A stretch of DNA of 64,000 bases, taken from positions 1-64,000 of IMG/VR virus record IMGVR_UViG_3300042876_000060; one strand, written 5' to 3'. This stretch comes from a virus. The position numbers and the translations under genes were made by a program. Below, piece by piece: positions 4,645 through 55,143 of the stretch. How positions within the stretch are numbered: position 1 is the first letter of the stretch; each line of letters opens with the position of its first letter. The notes beneath the pieces are model-generated. The model saw only the letters and a program-made list of their open reading frames with translations. It was not told the origin of the DNA and made no database searches.

Positions 4645-4732
4645 TCAGATTTTTCAAGAACCTTGTACGTGAGTACAAGTACCGTAAACGCATCAAAGAA
4701 CTACGTAAACGTGATCCTTTTATCTACAAATG
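4634..4732 (+). CDS. Small basic protein (32 aa)
   Basis: Starts at an ATG inside the end of the SGNH gene and stops in an ATGA overlap with the carbamoyltransferase start. The protein is very basic (RFFKNLVREYKYRKRIKELR) and amphipathic. No family recognised. The exact overlaps at both ends argue that it is translated, at least as a coupling peptide. Confidence 0.5.
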
Positions 4733-6211
4733 AACTATATCGGTATATCAACTGGATTCCATGACGCTGCTGTAAGTGTTGTGGATAGCCAAGGTAACAT
4801 CTTGTTTGCTGGTCATAGTGAACGCTATAGCAAGAGTAAGCATGATAAACAATTGTGCCACGATTTGATTGAGGATGCGATTAGACACACTAATGACAAG
4901 TGGGAAGTTCATTACTACGAACGTCCTTGGATGAAGTTCTTACGACAAGTGCGTAGTGGTGAGAAGCCATTCATTTTTAATCTTAGTGCAAAGAATATCA
5001 TTGGCAGACAATATCTAAAGCAGTTGGATGTGTCTAGTGTAACCACTCACAATCATCACTTGAGTCATGCTGCTGCAGGGTTTCAGACGAGCCCATACGA
5101 TGATGCAACTGTAGTCGTGATTGATGCTATCGGTGAGTTCGATACGATTACTATCTGGGATGCAAAGTATGTCAACGGCAGAGCCAAGTACAAGAAACTA
5201 TGGTCTAAGAAGTACCCCGACTCAATTGGCTTGTTCTATTCAGCAATGACAGAACGAGTTGGCTTACGTCCATTAGACGAAGAATACATTCTAATGGGTA
5301 TGGCCGCATATGGTCAAAACAAACACGTAGATACAATGCGTGAAGTATTGTTAGACAGTGAAGAAGATATTGATTTCACGCAGAATTTACACACCGGTGT
5401 AAGTAAAGACTTTCTAGAAGATGCAGACGAGATGGACATTGCTGCAAGTAGTCAGCAGGTTGTTGAACTATTGATTGCACAAGTAATGAAAAGAGCAAGC
5501 AAGATCGGCAAGAGCAAGAACTTAGTCTATGGTGGTGGTGTTGCACTTAACTGTTCAGCTAACAGATTCTTAGGAGCATTTTTTGATAACATATGGATTA
5601 TGCCTAATCCTGGTGACGCTGGTAATAGCTTGGGCGCCGCCGCGTTGGGCTACGGTGGCAGGCTTAATTGGCGTGATAGTTTTCTGGGCCACAATATTGA
5701 AGGTGCTTACCCAGTGGATGCCATTATTGGACGCTTGCTTAGTCACAGTATTGTCGGTGTTGCTAGTGGCCGGGCTGAGTTTGGCCCAAGAGCGTTAGGC
5801 AATAGAAGTTTATTAGCGGACCCAAGAGGTCCAGAAATTAAGGATAAAGTAAATGAAATCAAACGTAGACAAAAATTCAGACCCTTTGCACCTGTTATTT
5901 TGGAGGAGCTGGCTGATACTTACTTTGATATGCCTCACGGTTGGGATAACAGTAGGTATATGCAAGTCATCGCTCGTTGTAGGCTTCCTCACTTATTTCC
6001 TGCTATCGTTCATGCTGACGGCACTAGTCGTGTCCAGACTGTACCGAAAGATGGTTCGGGAATTAGAAAACTCTTAGAAGCATGGTATAAAGAAACAGGT
6101 TGCCCAATGCTACTGAATACATCATTGAATATCCGCGGAGAACCAATGGTCAACGATAGAGATGATGCTGATAGGTTCGAGCAAATGTATAATGTTAAAG
6201 TGATTTCATAA
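4730..6211 (+). CDS. O-carbamoyltransferase (NodU/CmcH/TobZ family)
   Basis: 493 aa. The N-terminal Kae1/YrdC-like ATPase fold begins IGISTGFHDAAVSVVD and carries the metal-binding histidines in HNHHLSHAAAGF; VVVIDAIGEFDT and YGGGVALNCSANRF follow. The C-terminal domain has GRAEFGPRALGNRSLLADPR and PFAPVILEE, hallmarks of NodU/CmcH enzymes, which form carbamoyl-adenylate and carbamoylate a hydroxyl of a sugar or antibiotic. The family is common in aminoglycoside and nodulation-factor clusters. Next to an amidinotransferase it supports a decorated aminosugar product. Ends 11 bases before the next gene. Confidence 0.88.
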   Translation: MNYIGISTGFHDAAVSVVDSQGNILFAGHSERYSKSKHDKQLCHDLIEDAIRHTNDKWEVHYYERPWMKFLRQVRSGEKPFIFNLSAKNIIGRQYLKQLDVSSVTTHNHHLSHAAAGFQTSPYDDATVVVIDAIGEFDTITIWDAKYVNGRAKYKKLWSKKYPDSIGLFYSAMTERVGLRPLDEEYILMGMAAYGQNKHVDTMREVLLDSEEDIDFTQNLHTGVSKDFLEDADEMDIAASSQQVVELLIAQVMKRASKIGKSKNLVYGGGVALNCSANRFLGAFFDNIWIMPNPGDAGNSLGAAALGYGGRLNWRDSFLGHNIEGAYPVDAIIGRLLSHSIVGVASGRAEFGPRALGNRSLLADPRGPEIKDKVNEIKRRQKFRPFAPVILEELADTYFDMPHGWDNSRYMQVIARCRLPHLFPAIVHADGTSRVQTVPKDGSGIRKLLEAWYKETGCPMLLNTSLNIRGEPMVNDRDDADRFEQMYNVKVIS

Positions 6212-11029: not shown

Positions 11030-12027
11030 ACAACCTTTCGATAGAGATATGGGATGTGTTGCGTGATCCGGAAGAGTTAACACGCCTCGCTGAGAAGGCT
11101 TCAAATGAAGACTTTGATAGGATATTCTATTTCTGCTTGAACGATTTCTTGTATTGGGACATGCCTCAACAATATCAACAATTGTTGAGTGCTGTTTCGT
11201 CTAAAGAAAAGAAGCTAGAGGTCTTAGTGGGACTATCATCGTTTGTAATCAAAGAACCGTCACATCCAAACGTAGATAGAACTTTTTGGGATATCTATTG
11301 GTTAATTAAGACTTATCTAAAAATACAACCACAAGAACAATCACTTGAATACAAATATCATTTTGTATCAATGAATCATAGGGCTAAACGACATCGTTGT
11401 GTGATGATAGATACACTAGCAAAGTACAATCTTCTACAAGGAAATGCAGTATCTTGGCATGAGCATACAAATTATAACTGGAGATACTTTGATGGGAGAA
11501 TTATGTCACTAACTGACAACTTCTCAAGTAATTTTGAACAGTACTGTATGCCAGACGAGTACTCTCAATCCTTTGCACAGTTAGTAGCAGAAACATCTTT
11601 AGAGGTAATCGAGATATCAGAAAAGACAGCAACACCGTTGATATTAGGTAAGCCATTCTTAGTTCTAGGTGCTGACTCAAACTCACAATTGTTAACTAAG
11701 CTAGGCTTTGAACACTACTCGGAAATATTTGACTACTCGTTCGACACTGTGAGTAAACATAACTACTTTAGCCGTTGTGAAAAACTTGCGTCTAACTTTA
11801 CAGAGTTATCAAAGACTCCATTAGATCAGCTACCTAAACTATACGACAAAGTAAAGGATAAGATACTACACAATCAGAACAGGGTCAAGGAACTAGTTTT
11901 TGATTTCAACAATTACCCTGGCACAGTGAGAGAAGTTTTGGACATCTATGATACAACTGGGCAAGTACTCAACCAAGAACTGATTGATATTTACCGAAAA
12001 CTCTTGCTATTGAAGCTGAAATCATAA
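11026..12027 (+). CDS. Glycosyltransferase-like protein
   Basis: 333 aa, starting in an ATGA overlap with the repeat gene. Residues about 125-150 read SMNHRAKRHRCVMIDTLAKY and about 190-225 read LEVIEISEKTATPLILGKPFLVLGA, the E-K-x6-G-x-PF-x-x-x-G motif of exostosin- and fucosyltransferase-like phage glycosyltransferases. The N-terminal 110 residues are helical and unassigned. Together with the repeat protein and the fusion at 2106, this gives three glycosyltransferase-like proteins in one transcript, consistent with glycan synthesis for the virion, phage DNA or the host surface. Confidence 0.6.
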   Translation: MNNLSIEIWDVLRDPEELTRLAEKASNEDFDRIFYFCLNDFLYWDMPQQYQQLLSAVSSKEKKLEVLVGLSSFVIKEPSHPNVDRTFWDIYWLIKTYLKIQPQEQSLEYKYHFVSMNHRAKRHRCVMIDTLAKYNLLQGNAVSWHEHTNYNWRYFDGRIMSLTDNFSSNFEQYCMPDEYSQSFAQLVAETSLEVIEISEKTATPLILGKPFLVLGADSNSQLLTKLGFEHYSEIFDYSFDTVSKHNYFSRCEKLASNFTELSKTPLDQLPKLYDKVKDKILHNQNRVKELVFDFNNYPGTVREVLDIYDTTGQVLNQELIDIYRKLLLLKLKS

Positions 12028-12030
12028 ATA
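12023..12030 (+). promoter_or_regulatory. Late-type promoter box CATAAATA
   Basis: Overlaps the stop of the preceding gene and lies 7 bases before the ATG at 12038. Confidence 0.45.
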
Positions 12031-12037
12031 ATACACT

Positions 12038-12130
12038 ATGTTCTTTGTATGGATCTTTATCGCTGTTGTATTCACTGCTGCCATCTGGTGGCTAATGGAT
12101 TGGCACGACAAACATCCCGACGGAGAATAA
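12038..12130 (+). CDS. Single-span membrane peptide (30 aa)
   Basis: Hydrophobic helix MFFVWIFIAVVFTAAIWWLM followed by a short charged tail. No Shine-Dalgarno site; it sits 7 bases behind a late box. Function unknown. Confidence 0.5.
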   Translation: MFFVWIFIAVVFTAAIWWLMDWHDKHPDGE

Positions 12131-12246
12131 AAGTTATTGCTGTATGAAGCAAAGAGAAAAGTGTTCTGGACGCAAGGGTAGGACACCGCAAATACCACAA
12201 CACAAAAGTATTACATTTAAGCCCAGATTTCCTGGGCTTTTTTTGT
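12131..12246 (+). ncRNA. Untranslated stretch with terminator; possible small RNA
   Basis: No convincing reading frame. It begins with TATTGCTGTA, the same ten bases that open the tmRNA acceptor region at 14185, and continues with GAGAAAAGTGTTCTGGACGC, similar to the T-arm entry of a tmRNA, but the rest does not fold as one. Ends at the terminator at 12219-12244. Confidence 0.25.
12219..12244 (+). terminator. Intrinsic terminator
   Basis: 8-bp stem AAGCCCAG/CTGGGCTT with a 5-base loop, followed by a run of T. It separates the late transcript from the promoter at 12250. Confidence 0.85.
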
Positions 12247-12249
12247 CGG

Positions 12250-12278
12250 TTGACAATAAATCATTTTGATGCTATACT
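12250..12278 (+). promoter_or_regulatory. Sigma-70 promoter
   Basis: TTGACA, 17-base spacer, TATACT. First of the recurrent TTGACAATAAAT-type promoters; drives the small genes from 12309. Confidence 0.9.
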
Positions 12279-12308
12279 ATAGTCATAGTAACAAAACAGG
12301 AGTTTGAA

Positions 12309-12419
12309 GTGCTTGGATATTACGATTACGACCTTCACGATGTGGTCAATGCTGTGTGTGCGACAGTTATCCTAATGGCACTGATTGTTATCCCTTTTGT
12401 TTTTACTTTCGGAGCCTAA
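12309..12419 (+). CDS. Small membrane protein (36 aa, GTG start)
   Basis: GTG start preceded by AGGAG at a suitable distance and 31 bases downstream of the promoter -10 box. One hydrophobic helix (about residues 16-34, VCATVILMALIVIPFVFTF). Stops two bases before the next ATG. Unknown function. Confidence 0.6.
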   Translation: MLGYYDYDLHDVVNAVCATVILMALIVIPFVFTFGA

Positions 12420-12420
12420 A

Positions 12421-12735
12421 ATGAACAAACGAATTCAAGAACTATTTGTTAGAGCATACGGTTATGTCCCTCTCCCTATTGAAGACCATGTATCACCGGA
12501 AATGGAAAGATTTGCCGAGTTGATGGTTATTGAGTTTTCGGATGTAGTCAAGCAAACTGCCAACGAACTTGCCGAATCTGGATTCCGACAAGGTCAATCA
12601 GAGGAAGAAGTTATGAAAAGTGTCAACGGTGCTTTGGCTGTGTTGAAAGTTATGCGTGAGAGGTTCGAAGTCGGTATGACTACAGAAGATAAAAAGACCC
12701 TAGTTAAAGAATTATTGGGGGTAAAGAATGATTGA
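12421..12735 (+). CDS. Member of the KFAELIVRE small-protein family
   Basis: 104 aa from the ATG at 12421. Starts MNKRIQELFVRA and has MERFAELMVIEFSDVV, the diverged form of a module (MNERI.EL ... KFAELIVRECxxI ... IKxHFGVEE) found in at least six other genes of this window (13036, 13239, 51570, 51818, 58950, 60283). The C-terminus has its own ending rather than HFGVEE. Function unknown. Confidence 0.6.
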   Translation: MNKRIQELFVRAYGYVPLPIEDHVSPEMERFAELMVIEFSDVVKQTANELAESGFRQGQSEEEVMKSVNGALAVLKVMRERFEVGMTTEDKKTLVKELLGVKND

Positions 12736-13039
12736 CTATCACGAAGCCGTAAAACAAATGCACCAGGGCAATGTAGTCAAGTATGCTGGCACGGTAAATG
12801 GTAATGTGATGAGCGATAATGGTGCCAGTTTTTGTATGTGCCGCGGTTGTATCTTCCTGTTTGATAAGGGAGTAATCAAATGGAACAAGTTGGGATACAT
12901 GGTTTACGATCCAGATTACAGATATGAACTAACCGGCGAAACCGTAGATCCAAGAGCCTGGAAACCAGAAAAGAAAACGGACCGTAAAGAGATTAAATCA
13001 AAGTTAGGCTACAGCCGCATAGGAAGGAATAATGTATGA
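12728..13039 (+). CDS. Conserved-looking phage protein, unknown
   Basis: 103 aa. Starts YHEAVKQMHQGNVVKYAG, has a Cys pair CMCRGC and ends ELTGETVDPRAWKPEKK. The opening (EA...M..G..V) recalls DUF2829-type small phage proteins, some of which are anti-Thoeris sponges, but the match is too weak to claim. Overlaps both neighbours. Confidence 0.5.
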   Translation: MIDYHEAVKQMHQGNVVKYAGTVNGNVMSDNGASFCMCRGCIFLFDKGVIKWNKLGYMVYDPDYRYELTGETVDPRAWKPEKKTDRKEIKSKLGYSRIGRNNV

Positions 13040-13242
13040 GTAAGATACCAATGTTAGAAAAGTTTGCCGCACAAAGTCTTGTCGAGCATGACGGTGAATT
13101 GATTTTTAGTAAAGAAAAGTTCGCCGAATTGATTGTGAGAGAATGTATGGATATTGCCTACGCATACGATGCTCCAAAACTTTCTGGTCCAGGAATGATT
13201 GTTGCTAACAGGATTGAAGATCACTTCGGAGTTGAAGAATGA
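13036..13242 (+). CDS. KFAELIVRE-family small protein
   Basis: 68 aa. Contains SKEKFAELIVRECMDIA and ends IEDHFGVEE. Coupled to both neighbours by ATGA overlaps. Tandem paralogue of the next gene. Confidence 0.65.
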   Translation: MSKIPMLEKFAAQSLVEHDGELIFSKEKFAELIVRECMDIAYAYDAPKLSGPGMIVANRIEDHFGVEE

Positions 13243-13499
13243 ACGAACGAATTCGAGAACTTGCCACAGAAGTTGGTATTAGCGTAGATTATTTGACTAA
13301 CACAAAACAAATTGTGTTGTTGGAAAAGTTCGCCGAATTGATTGTGAGAGAATGTTTGAGTATTGTGGAAAATAATAACCCTCGTCCACTAGGCACTACT
13401 ATAATGTATAGTTTGTCCAAGGATGAATATTTTGACACAGGTTGGCAAGTGGCAGTGGAAACTAAATCCAATCAGATTAAACAACATTTTGGAGTTTAA
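13239..13499 (+). CDS. KFAELIVRE-family small protein
   Basis: 86 aa. Starts MNERIRELATEVG, contains LEKFAELIVRECLSIVE and ends IKQHFGV. Same architecture as the copies at 51570, 58950 and 60283; function unknown. Confidence 0.65.
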   Translation: MNERIRELATEVGISVDYLTNTKQIVLLEKFAELIVRECLSIVENNNPRPLGTTIMYSLSKDEYFDTGWQVAVETKSNQIKQHFGV

Positions 13500-13535
13500 T
13501 AAGATTCAGTAAATGCTGGACTTTGGTTCGACAGG

Positions 13536-13543
13536 TATAAATA
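13536..13543 (+). promoter_or_regulatory. Late promoter box TATAAATA
   Basis: Perfect T4-type late box; the ATG at 13549 follows after exactly 5 bases, the expected transcription start. Confidence 0.6.
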
Positions 13544-13548
13544 CTTGT

Positions 13549-14181
13549 ATGAGCCACAAACATCACATTATTCCTAAACACGCAGGCGGAACAGACGATC
13601 CGAGTAATCTTGTAGAATTGTCTGTTGATGACCACGCAGAAGCACATCGCAAGTTATACGAAGAATATGGTCGTTGGCAAGATTATGTTGCGTGGCACGG
13701 GTTAGCAAAGTTAAGCCCAAAAGAAGAATTGGTAAGAATAAGACAACGAGAAGCGGCAAAGTTGCGCCATCAATTACACCCTAATCCATTCACTGGTATC
13801 CGCACTGAACACAATTTTGCCGTGAATGAAGAACATCAAAAGAAGGTGTGTGCTTTAGCCAATAGTGAATCCGCAATGGAAAAGCGTAAGAAGACCTTTG
13901 CCGAAAGACAGCACCAACAGAAAGAAAACAATTCTCAATTTGGAAAAGTTTGGTGTGTGGTAAAAGATGCGGTTGACTTGTCATCACGCAAGAAGTATAA
14001 TAAAGAACAAATCCCGGAAGGTTGGATCACAACAACTGAATGGAGTCAACTACGCAAGAATAAAAACAACAATGCCTTTGGTAGACACTGGTATAACGAT
14101 GGTGAGAAGAATTACTATCTAAAGCCAGACGATGCTAAAATAGCAGAATTGAATTTACAAAAGCGTAGATTGATTAAATAA
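13549..14181 (+). CDS. HNH homing-type endonuclease
   Basis: 210 aa from the ATG at 13549 (an upstream ATG at 13513 lacks a ribosome site; the chosen ATG sits 5 bases behind a late box). Opens MSHKHHIIPKHAGGTDDPSN and NLVELSVDDHAEAH, the HNH fold of group-I-intron-type endonucleases, followed by basic DNA-binding repeats with FGKVW and FGRHWYNDGEKNYYL. It ends only a few bases before the tmRNA acceptor region, so it may have homed into the tmRNA locus. Confidence 0.8.
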   Translation: MSHKHHIIPKHAGGTDDPSNLVELSVDDHAEAHRKLYEEYGRWQDYVAWHGLAKLSPKEELVRIRQREAAKLRHQLHPNPFTGIRTEHNFAVNEEHQKKVCALANSESAMEKRKKTFAERQHQQKENNSQFGKVWCVVKDAVDLSSRKKYNKEQIPEGWITTTEWSQLRKNKNNNAFGRHWYNDGEKNYYLKPDDAKIAELNLQKRRLIK

Positions 14182-14185
14182 GAAT

Positions 14186-14501
14186 ATTGCTGTAAAGTCC
14201 GAAAGGAAAGATACAACGAGAAATGAGTCTTGGACGGGGCTTCGAAGCCCCCATCTCCACCAAGAGCATATTAGAAATAGTGTGTTGTTGTTGGGGATGA
14301 AATGGTTTCGACAGGGCAAAGAGTAACAGAGTGGACAGCTCGGGAAAGCAGAACCCGTAGGATTGGGGTGACCCGGTCGTAGACGCAAAAAACTTAAATG
14401 CAAATGACGAAAGTTTCCGCATTGCAGCCTGATAAAGGCCGCTAGGGTAAGAAATACCTCGTAACAGAAACTCACTAAAGGCTACTTCGGTAGCCTTTTT
14501 T
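14186..14501 (+). ncRNA. ssrA: Permuted (two-piece) tmRNA
   Basis: The acceptor part precedes the coding part. Acceptor piece: GGAC, T-arm GGGGC-TTCGAA-GCCCC and acceptor strand CATCTCC with encoded ACCA at 14252-14262. After a 30-base intervening segment the coding piece starts GGGGATGAAATGGTTTCGAC at 14293. GGGGATG pairs with CATCTCC over 7 bp, with a G3-U wobble, the alanyl-tRNA synthetase identity pair. A hairpin (CGGG/CCCG) and GGGTGACCC lead to TAGAC and the resume codon GCA at 14385. The tag reads AKNLNANDESFRIAA followed by TGA TAA (14430-14435). A UUCG terminator closes it. This is the gene order of alphaproteobacterial, cyanobacterial and some betaproteobacterial tmRNAs. The T-loop counts as 6 bases, one short of usual. 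Confidence 0.85.
14478..14501 (+). terminator. Intrinsic terminator with UUCG loop
   Basis: Stem AAGGCTAC/GTAGCCTT closed by TTCG, then a T run. Ends the tmRNA transcript. Confidence 0.9.
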
Positions 14502-14502
14502 A

Positions 14503-14531
14503 TTGCATGTACTTTTCGAGTGATATATAAT
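14503..14531 (+). promoter_or_regulatory. Sigma-70 promoter
   Basis: TTGCAT, 17-base spacer, TATAAT; reads into the outer-membrane protein gene. Confidence 0.65.
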
Positions 14532-14572
14532 AGTTCATGTTTCGAAAGAAGCATTTTTTAAAGGAAAACTAA

Positions 14573-15025
14573 ATGAAAAAATTTGCAATCGCATCAATCT
14601 TAGCAGTCGCCGCATTCTCAGCATCAGCTTTGGAAGTTGGCGTAACATCAACAACTGACTATAGCGCACCAACTGCCCGTCAAGGCTTCGGTATCGCGGT
14701 TGGTCAATCATATGGCAAGGTTAGCGTTACAGGTGGCTTCGAACGTTTCACTAAGGGTGCTAACGATCAAGACCGTTACAGCGTTACTGCTGGCTACGAC
14801 ATTGCTAAGTTCGGCCCTGTCACTGTGACTCCCAAAGTTGCAGTCGCATACTTGAATAACCAAACTACTAGTGATGGCTATGCATTGGCTGTCGGTGTTG
14901 GCGCAACCCTTCCATTGACTAAGCAAGTTGCTTTCACTTTGGATACGGCTCGTCAGTATGGTCAGAAGCGTGTTCAGGATTCTGATGGTAACACTGTTAC
15001 TGCAGGCTTGAAGTATACATTCTAA
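14573..15025 (+). CDS. Outer-membrane beta-barrel protein with signal peptide
   Basis: 150 aa. A clear Sec signal peptide (MKKFAIASILAVAAFSASA, cleavage after ASA) precedes alternating amphipathic strands rich in Gly, Thr and Tyr, and the protein ends GLKYTF with the terminal phenylalanine of the BAM insertion signal. About 130 mature residues suit a small (roughly 8-strand) barrel. It has its own promoter and a Shine-Dalgarno site (AAAGGAAAA). Phage surface barrels such as Lom alter the host envelope; the role here could be superinfection exclusion, but that is inference. Confidence 0.75.
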   Translation: MKKFAIASILAVAAFSASALEVGVTSTTDYSAPTARQGFGIAVGQSYGKVSVTGGFERFTKGANDQDRYSVTAGYDIAKFGPVTVTPKVAVAYLNNQTTSDGYALAVGVGATLPLTKQVAFTLDTARQYGQKRVQDSDGNTVTAGLKYTF

Positions 15026-15042
15026 TTCTATCTGAATTGGGT

Positions 15043-15072
15043 AGAAAGGCTCTTTACAGAGCCTTTCTTTTT
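15043..15072 (+). terminator. Intrinsic terminator overlapping a promoter
   Basis: 10-bp stem AGAAAGGCTC/GAGCCTTTCT and T run. Its 6-base loop TTTACA is also the -35 element of the tRNA promoter. Confidence 0.85.
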
Positions 15073-15081
15073 GTGTATAAT
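15053..15081 (+). promoter_or_regulatory. Promoter of the tRNA gene
   Basis: TTTACA (the terminator loop), 17-base spacer, TATAAT, 12 bases before the tRNA. Confidence 0.65.
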
Positions 15082-15093
15082 AACTCTCATACT

Positions 15094-15168
15094 GCGCTAG
15101 TAGCTAAGTGGCATAGCAGGAGCCTCTAAAACTCTGAATCACGGGTTCGATTCCCGTCTAGCGCACCA
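15094..15168 (+). tRNA. tRNA with anticodon CUA (amber reading)
   Basis: Complete cloverleaf with encoded CCA: acceptor GCGCTAG/CTAGCGC (7 perfect pairs), D stem GCTA/TAGC, T stem ACGGG/CCCGT with loop TTCGATT, 5-base variable loop, discriminator A. The anticodon loop is CTCTAAA, giving CUA at 15126-15128 with U33 and A37 in place. The anticodon stem GGAGC/ACTCT has a G-U pair and a C-A mismatch next to the loop. The alternative UCU reading needs a C at position 33 and destroys the stem. It should decode UAG; the amino acid cannot be told. Confidence 0.78.
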
Positions 15169-15180
15169 TAATTTGTAAAT

Positions 15181-15459
15181 ATGAAAACTTGGTACTTGCC
15201 CCCACCTTACACCCAAGATGATGTTGAATGGATCAACAACTCTGGTGTAGATTATGATCTAGAGTCTCCTTATGAACAGGGTGATAGTGGCTGGTGCGAT
15301 GCGACTACTGGTTATGGAATATTAACTGACCGACACAAGATTTACTTGAACACACATACCGATGAAGAACTAACATGGTTGTTGCTCAAGTATGATGGTA
15401 GAGTTCAACTACGGTATGAGAGTCTAACTGACGAAGAATTAGAAGAAGCAAATTTCTAA
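15181..15459 (+). CDS. Acidic unknown protein
   Basis: 92 aa, acidic, opening MKTWYLPPPYTQDDVEW and ending LTDEELEEANF. It follows the tRNA by 12 bases with no clear Shine-Dalgarno site, so it may be poorly translated or start elsewhere. No family recognised. Confidence 0.55.
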   Translation: MKTWYLPPPYTQDDVEWINNSGVDYDLESPYEQGDSGWCDATTGYGILTDRHKIYLNTHTDEELTWLLLKYDGRVQLRYESLTDEELEEANF

Positions 15460-28732: not shown

Positions 28733-29081
28733 TAAACACGCTATACCAATCCTTCGTAAGTTGATGCCAGCTATTATTGCTAAAGATATAGTTGGCGTGC
28801 AGCCAATGGCAAAGTCCAATCCTATCTTTCAAATGAAAGATGGCATGGTTGGGTTCAAAAATTACACACTAGCACTCAATCAGAATGAATGTGTACTGTA
28901 TGATACTCCTGAACAAATGTATTATGCAGTTGATGTTAGACCTATCGTAGAAGAATGGTTGTTAATTCAACCCCTTCATATGTGGAAATACGCAGAAGAA
29001 ACTGAGGGTTGTCACTTTGCTTGCACACGTTACATCGTGTGCGAAGAACTACTAACTTGGATGACGGTAAAATGGGGATGA
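28725..29081 (+). CDS. Small protein with gp23-like arm motif
   Basis: 118 aa. Residues about 5-40 (HAIPILRKLMPAIIAKDIVG and VQPMAKSNPIFQMKDG) closely match the conserved N-terminal region of T4-type major capsid protein gp23 (..RR..P.LIA.DI.GVQPM..P.G..FAM). The remaining 75 residues do not look like a capsid fold. It may be a capsid-derived accessory protein. Overlaps both neighbours. Confidence 0.55.
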   Translation: MFNKHAIPILRKLMPAIIAKDIVGVQPMAKSNPIFQMKDGMVGFKNYTLALNQNECVLYDTPEQMYYAVDVRPIVEEWLLIQPLHMWKYAEETEGCHFACTRYIVCEELLTWMTVKWG

Positions 29082-30136
29082 ACATTCCGCACTTTGGTCT
29101 AGTAAGACAGTATAAGAACATCGGCGAAGAGTTGCTTGATGCAACTCATCGTGCTATGAAGGATGGTATACTTGTGGGCGGCCACTATACTCGTTCGTTT
29201 GAAGAATGGTTAAAGCACAAGACCAAGACCAAGTATGCTATCACTGTTCATAGTGGTACACAAGCACTTGAGATTATTGCTCGTTGGAAAAAGATCAAAC
29301 ACAGTGAAACTATGGATGGTAATCCTAAGGTTCGCATTCCGAATCTAACTTATCCTGCAACAATGAATGCCTTCTTGACTGCTGGATGGGATGTTGAGAT
29401 AGCTGACACTGACAAGTATGGCATCCTAGAGCATACACAGCGAGGTGGTTTGTATGATTGTGTAGTTGGATTGTATGGGATGAAGCCTTGGGATAATCTT
29501 CACTACGATCAATCATATGGTGTCATAGTAGACGGAGCACAACATTGGTTAGTCGCAGATGGCAACGTCGGCGCTGGTATGGCTATCAGCTTTGATCCTA
29601 CAAAGAATCTGAATGCAAGTGGCAACGGTGGTGCAATCGTTACTAACGATGAAAAACTATATCTATTCGCATCCAGATATCGTGACAACAATAAACCTTA
29701 CTTTCATGAGGTTGGTACTAACAGTAAAATGAGCGAGATTGATTGTGCTCACTTGTTAGTCAGAATCAAGTACATTGATGAATGGCAGAAGCGTAGGAAA
29801 GAGATTGCTAAATTTTGGTGTGACAGATTCAGTGAGCTACCGATAACATGTCTATCTAATGTTCCGCAACCTCATGCACATCAAAAGTTCGTGATGTATC
29901 TTCCTGATCGCAATTCACTACATACACACATGATGCTGAATGGTATTGATACGAAACGTCACTATGAATATGTCTTAGGTGATCTGCCGACCTCGATCGG
30001 ATTACAGAAACCAGACATGTTAAGCACAAGCGTAATGCTATCTAGAGGTGTTTTGAGCCTCCCTATGTACCCAGAACTCACAGATTCAGAAGTAAATTAC
30101 ATAGCTGACAAAGTAGACGAATATTTCGGAGAGTAG
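29078..30136 (+). CDS. DegT/DnrJ/EryC1 aminotransferase
   Basis: 352 aa from ATG 29078 (ATGA overlap). Full-length PLP enzyme: YAITVHSGTQALEIIARW, VDGAQHWLVADG, FDPTKNLNASGNGGAIVTND with the Schiff-base Lys, and a complete C-terminal domain. Makes an amino sugar from a keto sugar; its partner is probably the epimerase at 27758. It is one of four genes here ending in TAG; a TAA follows five codons later. Confidence 0.87.
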   Translation: MNIPHFGLVRQYKNIGEELLDATHRAMKDGILVGGHYTRSFEEWLKHKTKTKYAITVHSGTQALEIIARWKKIKHSETMDGNPKVRIPNLTYPATMNAFLTAGWDVEIADTDKYGILEHTQRGGLYDCVVGLYGMKPWDNLHYDQSYGVIVDGAQHWLVADGNVGAGMAISFDPTKNLNASGNGGAIVTNDEKLYLFASRYRDNNKPYFHEVGTNSKMSEIDCAHLLVRIKYIDEWQKRRKEIAKFWCDRFSELPITCLSNVPQPHAHQKFVMYLPDRNSLHTHMMLNGIDTKRHYEYVLGDLPTSIGLQKPDMLSTSVMLSRGVLSLPMYPELTDSEVNYIADKVDEYFGE

Positions 30137-53739: not shown

Positions 53740-55143
53740 ATGAAACTCACTCAAAACATCATCTTGAACACCGACAGTTACAAAGTGTCGATGGCCCCTC
53801 AATACCCAGCAGGTACTACTGGCGTATTTTCTTACATTGCAAGTCGTGGTGGCAAATTCACGTTCACGCAATTCATTGGTCTGCAAATTTTCAATAAAGA
53901 ATATTTGCTCAACCCTATCACAAAAGCCGATGTTGATATCGCAGAAGAAATCCTCACAGCACACGGCGAGCCCTTTGACCGCAGTCGCTGGGATTATATC
54001 GTTGACAATCTCGGTGGCTACTTGCCCGTAGTCATCAAAGCTGTACCAGAAGGCACTGTTGTCCCAGTTGGCAACGCATTGGTCACAATCGAAAACACCG
54101 ATCCAAACTGCTACTGGTTGACTACTTGGTTGGAAACTCCCTTGCTCCGTGCAGTGTGGTACCCAACTACAGTTTCTACACAAAGCAAATACATTAAAAA
54201 TATTTTGATCGACTACTTGGAGAAATCTGGTGACCCAACAACTATTGGTTTTAAACTACATGATTTCGGTGCCCGCGGCGTTAGCTCTCTTGAGTCTGCT
54301 GGTATTGGTGGTACAGCTCACCTCGTTAACTTTATGGGCACGGATACTATTACTGGTGTCTTATACGCTCGTGAGTATTACAACGCTGGTATTGCTGGTT
54401 TCTCAATCCCAGCCGCAGAACACAGCACAATCACAAGTTGGGGTCGTGCAGGTGAGTTGAATGCTTACAGCAACATGGTCACACAGTTTGGCAAGCCCGG
54501 TGGTATTGTTGCAGTCGTTAGTGACAGCTACAACATTTACGAAGCCTGCAAAATGTGGAGCACAGGTGATCTGAAACAACAAGTGATCGATTCAGGTGCT
54601 ACAGTTGTGATTCGTCCTGACAGTGGTGATCCTGTCGAAGTGATGCCAAAGATGATTCAGATTCTTTCTGAAGGTTTCGGCTACACTACAAACGACAAAG
54701 GTTACAAAGTGTTGAACAACGTTCGCATGATCTGGGGTGATGGTATCAATCCATTGAGCATCCAAGCAATCTTGCGCACAATGGTTGACATGCTGGGCTG
54801 GAGTGCAGATAACTTTGCATTCGGTATGGGCGGTGCTTTGTTGCAAGGCATTGATCGTGATACCCAGAAATGGGCTATGAAATGCTCTAGTGCATGTGTC
54901 AACGGTGAGTGGGTCGATGTTTACAAAGATCCTATCACTGACAGTGGTAAAGCAAGTCTGAAAGGTCGCGTGACTTTGTGGACTAACAGTGGTGGTGAGT
55001 TCGCTACTAGCGTATCAGCCCCAACTGGTTGGTCAGACAAAGGCATCGGCGGTTGGACTGAGGCACTAGTTGAAGTGTATCGTGATGGTAAACTCATCCG
55101 TGAATACACCTTTGACGAGGTCCGTGCTAACAGCATGAAATAA
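53740..55143 (+). CDS. Nicotinamide phosphoribosyltransferase (NAMPT)
   Basis: 467 aa, full length. ILNTDSYKVSMAPQYP at the N-terminus, KLHDFGARGVSSLESAGIGG, VVIRPDSGDPVEVMPKMIQI and FGMGGALLQGIDRDTQ are NAMPT/NAPRTase-fold signatures. Makes NMN from nicotinamide and PRPP, which NMNAT at 49721 turns into NAD+. The pair is the established phage pathway NARP2. Own promoter and leader. Confidence 0.94.
   Translation: MKLTQNIILNTDSYKVSMAPQYPAGTTGVFSYIASRGGKFTFTQFIGLQIFNKEYLLNPITKADVDIAEEILTAHGEPFDRSRWDYIVDNLGGYLPVVIKAVPEGTVVPVGNALVTIENTDPNCYWLTTWLETPLLRAVWYPTTVSTQSKYIKNILIDYLEKSGDPTTIGFKLHDFGARGVSSLESAGIGGTAHLVNFMGTDTITGVLYAREYYNAGIAGFSIPAAEHSTITSWGRAGELNAYSNMVTQFGKPGGIVAVVSDSYNIYEACKMWSTGDLKQQVIDSGATVVIRPDSGDPVEVMPKMIQILSEGFGYTTNDKGYKVLNNVRMIWGDGINPLSIQAILRTMVDMLGWSADNFAFGMGGALLQGIDRDTQKWAMKCSSACVNGEWVDVYKDPITDSGKASLKGRVTLWTNSGGEFATSVSAPTGWSDKGIGGWTEALVEVYRDGKLIREYTFDEVRANSMK

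Follow-up and report, generated by a model that had tools for sequence, protein, structure and literature searches.

A permuted tmRNA gene in a T4-type phage, probably restored behind an HNH endonuclease cassette inserted in an earlier copy

Positions 14186-14502 of the window (the whole 64,000-nt stretch of DNA analyzed, taken from an 87.5-kb virus record of a freshwater phage) raise the question of whether a phage tmRNA gene is functional there, and why it stands directly behind an endonuclease gene and fragments of another tmRNA copy. We consider it probable that this is a functional permuted tmRNA forming the right side of an HNH cassette, which inserted in the T loop of an earlier copy and restored the gene. 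A permuted tmRNA alone is ordinary; the interest lies in the endonuclease context, which the first-pass annotation overlooked.

The two-piece tmRNA and its tag

The first-pass annotation had read the locus as a permuted, two-piece tmRNA and proposed a covariance-model search as a check, and this reading is borne out. Using Infernal with the Rfam models, we found that RF01850 (beta_tmRNA) matches 14161-14502 with 100.7 bits (cut-off 84, E 1.9e-29) and RF04321 (tmRNA_permuted) matches 14205-14432 with 97.7 bits (cut-off 47), both above cut-off. ARAGORN called a permuted tmRNA at 14171-14523, and the fold and the covariation of the acceptor stem described below agree. The gene has the following parts:

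14186-14262, plus strand: tmRNA acceptor piece (Rfam RF01850/RF04321, ARAGORN, fold, coordinates)
14263-14292, plus strand: intervening segment, a 30-nt hairpin (sequence, fold)
14293-14435, plus strand: coding piece, beginning with the acceptor 5' strand GGGGATG and listed here up to the stop codons (ARAGORN, Rfam)
14400-14435, plus strand: tag frame, ANDESFRIAA followed by TGA TAA (ARAGORN, 107 coding pieces, translation)
14477-14503, plus strand: intrinsic terminator, closing the tmRNA gene (sequence)

The acceptor piece comprises a 5' half with the P2 strand GUCUUG, a T arm of GGGGC-UUCGAA-GCCCC, and a 3' end made up of the CATCTCC strand, the discriminator A and an encoded CCA, ending at 14262. 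The geometry first described for the locus holds at its coordinates, namely the CATCTCC-A-CCA end, the GGGGATG start at 14293, the 30-nt gap and the acceptor stem of 7 bp including G3-U70. As in the permuted family, the acceptor piece lies 5' of the coding piece, whose remainder runs from 14435 on to the terminator. The acceptor stem, G3-U70, CCA, P2, tag frame, stops and terminator are all intact, and the tRNA-like core of 99 nt has a folding z of -5.6 relative to shuffles. By all features that can be tested in the sequence, this RNA belongs to the permuted tmRNA family, and a betaproteobacterial sequence type is supported. It is most likely split into two mature pieces, and by analogy with known permuted tmRNAs the 30-nt segment 14263-14292 is expected to be cut out of the precursor.

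To compare acceptor stems, we used 87 distinct phage relatives picked only by the 37-nt acceptor 5' half, the CCAC end and, in the coding piece, the TTCGACAG(A/G)G motif and an initial GGG; beyond that GGG, the stem of the relatives played no part in their selection. All acceptor pairs were standard (609 of 609), compared with 539 standard pairs in the best of 5000 re-pairings used as a control, and nine stem combinations occur among the 87, for example CAGGTCC/GGGCCTG, CACCTCC/GGGGGTG and CCGGTCC/GGGCCGG. Pairing of the two pieces with each other is thus strongly supported, despite an acceptor-to-coding gap of 18 to 382 nt in the phages studied here. The long intervening segments (up to 382 nt; L106, L111, L121, L040, L112 and others) often hold an ORF with a purine-rich stretch 5' of it.

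Both ARAGORN and the Rfam alignments place the resume codon at the GCA at 14400, in the context TTAAAT/GCA. Among the 107 distinct phage coding pieces, this codon follows a TAAA(C/T)-like context, with A at position -4 in every one and T at -5 in 99. The ten encoded residues, ANDESFRIAA (codons 14400-14429), end in small and hydrophobic residues followed by a stop. Together with the tmRNA's own alanine they make 11 residues, the same as in E. coli. The tag first proposed, a 15-residue AKNLNANDESFRIAA beginning at an upstream GCA (14385) and taken to be longer than that of E. coli, is therefore not supported in either start or length, and we regard a start at 14385 as very unlikely. That codon is in frame and open in the window and likewise in 54 of the 107 distinct relatives, but the other 53 have no open in-frame upstream GCA and yet keep the downstream GCA, its context and an ANDxxFALAA-like tag, from which we read the window tag as ANDESFRIAA. 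Much longer tags of 27 to 33 residues occur in L018, L080, L111, L135, L007 and L025, and there is one apparent tandem tag, ANDDSFDVSAISFTGNSVANDSRFALAA.

Displaced tmRNA fragments and an endonuclease gene upstream

The 2 kb that precede the tmRNA contain these features:

12136-12172, plus strand: displaced 5' half of an acceptor piece, cut off at GGACG (BLAST, sequence)
12173-13516, plus strand: cargo between the stubs, with small ORFs at 12385-12735, 12728-13039, 13036-13242 and 13239-13499
13517-13531, plus strand: T-arm stub TGGACTTTGGTTCGA of the interrupted tmRNA copy (junction alignment of eight sequences)
13549-14181, plus strand: predicted HNH homing endonuclease of 210 aa, MSHKHHIIPKH... 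(Pfam, PHROG, homologues)
13973-14001, plus strand: candidate sigma-70-like promoter TTGACT-17-TATAAT within the endonuclease gene (11 of 12 consensus bases)

When the window was compared with the loci of relatives by BLAST, 38 bases (12135-12172) proved identical to the acceptor piece of L005, L015, L020 and L028, and the 37-nt fragment 12136-12172 occurs unchanged in the intact acceptor pieces of many relatives; such an acceptor stretch normally occurs in one copy per phage record. Following this stub, the region 12167-12245 contains a conserved GCAAGGGT-N-ACCG hairpin and an intrinsic terminator, and the same stub junction is also found ahead of cargo in L101, L109, L153, L155, L159, L160, L175 and L178. 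The 103-aa cargo ORF recurs in other tmRNA-linked cassettes. Elsewhere, insertions linked to a tmRNA carry, among other cargo, an ADP-ribosyltransferase-like protein and an M24 metallopeptidase (L159 2526-2957 and L080 4757-5500).

The stub TGGACTTTGGTTCGA is the left end of the endonuclease element. The program-called ORF start at 13513 falls within this stub, and we took the gene to start at 13549. Its HNH domain is intact (PF01844, 24.7 bits, cut-off 21.4), the protein is assigned to PHROG 655 (homing endonuclease), and it appears to fit the free-standing homing endonucleases. The gene stops four bases 5' of the intact acceptor piece, and the ORFs tested between the stubs and the tmRNA gave no match to an integrase family. 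The promoter-like element at 13973-14001 could drive the restored tmRNA; its TTGACT and TATAAT are conserved in L153 and L155, and matches to 11 of 12 consensus bases are not rarer in shuffled sequences.

A shared insertion point in related phages

A protein search identified HNH homologues in eight contigs, with 49 to 98% identity in the best segment, and in all eight the element starts at one T-arm/T-loop point of the tmRNA acceptor piece. The junction is mostly GGTTCGA/CAGGYATAAATAC, the empty site in L015 being GGTTCGA/CTCC, and L156 reads GGACGGCGGTTCGA/CAGGCATAAATAC at its junction compared with GGACGGCGGTTCGA/CTCCGCCC in the uninterrupted L015. As in the window, a complete acceptor and coding piece directly follows the HNH gene in six of the seven contigs that are long enough; in L160 the endonuclease junction is present and no tmRNA was detected after the endonuclease gene. 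A GIY-YIG endonuclease (PF19835, above cut-off) lies in L109 between a like stub and a divergent complete tmRNA, a protein related to it is encoded on the opposite strand in L178 and L186, and in L038 an HNH fragment lies on the opposite strand, with the 103-aa cargo protein of the window also present. Only the C-terminal codons of the HNH gene remain before an intact tmRNA in L080 and L099, as expected of a lost element. The window and L018 have two differences over 14147-14343 and different tags thereafter, that of L018 being 28 residues long and of another type, which is as expected of a co-conversion tract ending inside the coding piece.

The best reading of these loci is that endonucleases home repeatedly into the permuted-tmRNA T loop, with presumed cleavage and resistance, and that the cassette restores the gene it interrupts. 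Starting from the observed RNA architecture, tag, stubs, junctions and recurrence in related phages, the events may be pictured as follows. An earlier tmRNA copy would have taken up the HNH element in its T loop and survive as the remnants 12136-12172 and 13517-13531, and the complete acceptor piece right behind the element would restore the tmRNA. In the most likely course, uninterrupted acceptor pieces are cut in their T arm by the endonuclease; repair from a cassette-bearing phage would then bring in the endonuclease, the cargo and the replacement acceptor piece. The restored copy would itself have to escape cutting, with resistance presumably conferred by its altered T arm.

For the RNA product, a single precursor would be cut by host tRNA-processing enzymes into acceptor and coding pieces, which would stay joined through P2 and the 7-bp acceptor stem. 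After aminoacylation with alanine and binding of host SmpB, the tmRNA would act on stalled ribosomes to rescue them, and the nascent protein would gain A-ANDESFRIAA. A search of 28 phage records gave no SmpB gene, so the tmRNA would rely on the SmpB of the host. The sequence may fit a role in rescue while the phage infects, in clearing incomplete proteins or in competing with host tmRNA, and favors none of them.

The T arm of the restored copy is odd, with a 6-nt loop and a C53-G61 pair. We found that CGANTC is absent from all seven restored copies at stub- or HEG-linked loci and kept in 104 of 111 others, in a comparison set drawn mostly via one acceptor-piece type. This is suggestive of an altered T arm that lets the restored copy escape cutting. 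As specific proof of endonuclease resistance it is weakened by GGCRGUR T loops, which are found in a large, separate phage group of alphaproteobacterial type with no endonuclease requirement; because some altered T loops belong to this group, the loss of CGANTC is confounded. The group (L188-L306) has a GGCRGUR T loop and a AGGAUCGAC D-loop region instead of UUCGANU and GGUUUCGAC, and those members that were checked score as alphaproteobacterial-type tmRNA.

The same T arm bears on whether the restored tmRNA might be a decaying or decoy copy without trans-translation, or a competitor of the host tmRNA. A G53-C61 pair is near-universal in tRNAs, whereas the window has C53-G61, and the unusual 6-nt loop could weaken function. 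A tmRNA-like RNA of phage DS6A inhibits E. coli tmRNA, according to a citation in PMC11915505. However, this copy is intact in its acceptor stem with G3-U70, its CCA, P2 and tag frame, and its terminator, L018 has the same T arm, and 6-nt T loops are also present in two other phages (L016 and L076), so we judge a loss or change of function of this kind to be quite unlikely.

Two further explanations concern the arrangement rather than the RNA. An ordinary phage tmRNA could lie beside an unrelated homing endonuclease by chance, the fragments being leftovers of unequal phage recombination; phage genomes are mosaic, T4-type phages commonly carry endonucleases, and cyanophage S-SKS1 has a distant HNH relative that is located elsewhere. 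This appears unlikely given that all eight endonuclease homologues sit at one point in the tmRNA T arm and that a second endonuclease family and opposite-strand versions are likewise found at the tmRNA. Alternatively, the region from the stub to the T arm could be a self-splicing intron, with the stub spliced to the downstream T arm in the manner of group I tmRNA introns, which split the same loop and can hold endonuclease genes (PMC11915505). We rejected this reading as very improbable, since 11900-15300 has no match to group I or group II intron families even at E up to 1, and the downstream copy has a complete 5' half of its own that makes splicing unneeded.

Known systems and the phage setting

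The cassette resembles several known systems and differs from each. The permuted tmRNA of methylophage Melnitz (PMC9004378) is like that of the window in gene order, pieces, tag frame and aquatic phage origin, but it belongs to the alphaproteobacterial type and has a linked glutamine riboswitch, whereas the window gene is of beta type, follows a homing endonuclease as a restored copy and has stubs of an older copy 5' of it. SegB of T4 and T6 (PMC2988022, PMC13096335) is also a free-standing endonuclease at a translation-RNA locus, and its homing takes flanking RNA genes along, as the cassette would; SegB, however, is a GIY-YIG enzyme located between tRNA genes, and the HNH element of the window lies inside the tmRNA T loop with a complete copy after it. 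Group I introns in tmRNA, some with LAGLIDADG genes (PMC11915505), share the T-loop insertion and the endonuclease gene, but these are spliced and occur in bacterial genes, whereas no intron was detected in 11900-15300 of the window and a second acceptor piece restores the gene. Integrative islands in tmRNA and tRNA genes (Islander, PMC4383910) share the split target, the displaced fragment and the element-restored gene; they use tyrosine integrases and reside in chromosomes, in contrast to the window, where no integrase family was found among the tested ORFs between the stubs and the tmRNA. In the titles and abstracts searched, with incomplete coverage of the literature, we found no description of an endonuclease together with tmRNA or ssrA in phages.

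Extending the preferred reading to freshwater phages in general, we give about even chances to the acceptor-piece T loop being a standing homing site for at least two endonuclease families (HNH and GIY-YIG), whose cassettes would carry cargo and an uncut replacement tRNA-like domain, such that each homing event swaps the tRNA-like half and the tag half can stay that of the recipient. If true, a mobile element in a structured RNA gene would avoid harm by providing a spare half of a split RNA, without splicing, and the permuted layout is well suited to supplying such a half. It would also explain mosaic phage tmRNAs, including one tRNA-like domain with different tags (window and L018) and mixed T-arm types.

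The phage carries a UvsX-like recombinase, RIIA/RIIB, SSB and a DnaB-type helicase, and these T4-type replication and lysis-inhibition genes uphold its initial description as T4-like. The first-pass annotation had further considered a permuted tmRNA to be unusual in a T4-like phage and a sign of the host lineage or of capture from it. Two-piece forms already account for 53 of 133 unique phage tmRNAs, 50 of the 53 being from marine or aquatic phages (PMC9004378), and in IMG/VR we found matches in 29 contigs by a strict pattern and at least 120 stretches by a second pattern, placing permuted tmRNA in more than 100 contigs; its presence in phage is thus known and not unusual. As to capture directly from a host, two exact-pattern scans of bacterial genomes found no match, and the nearest sequences found are those of other phages.

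A tRNA with a CTA anticodon, possibly an amber suppressor, lies 0.6 kb 3' of the tmRNA (15094-15168) and is about 76% alike to a stretch of Lak phages. Lak phages recode TAG. TAG stops are rare in the window (5 of 133 ORFs by a crude caller), and amber recoding is not supported, with no conserved gene seen to have an in-frame TAG. We also considered whether this tRNA is tied to the tmRNA and rejected the idea, for although the window shares it with six other contigs, other tRNAs are equally common. Other genes of the phage encode a Nol-like carbamoyltransferase, an aminotransferase and a nicotinamide phosphoribosyltransferase (4730-6211, 29009-30136 and 53740-55143).
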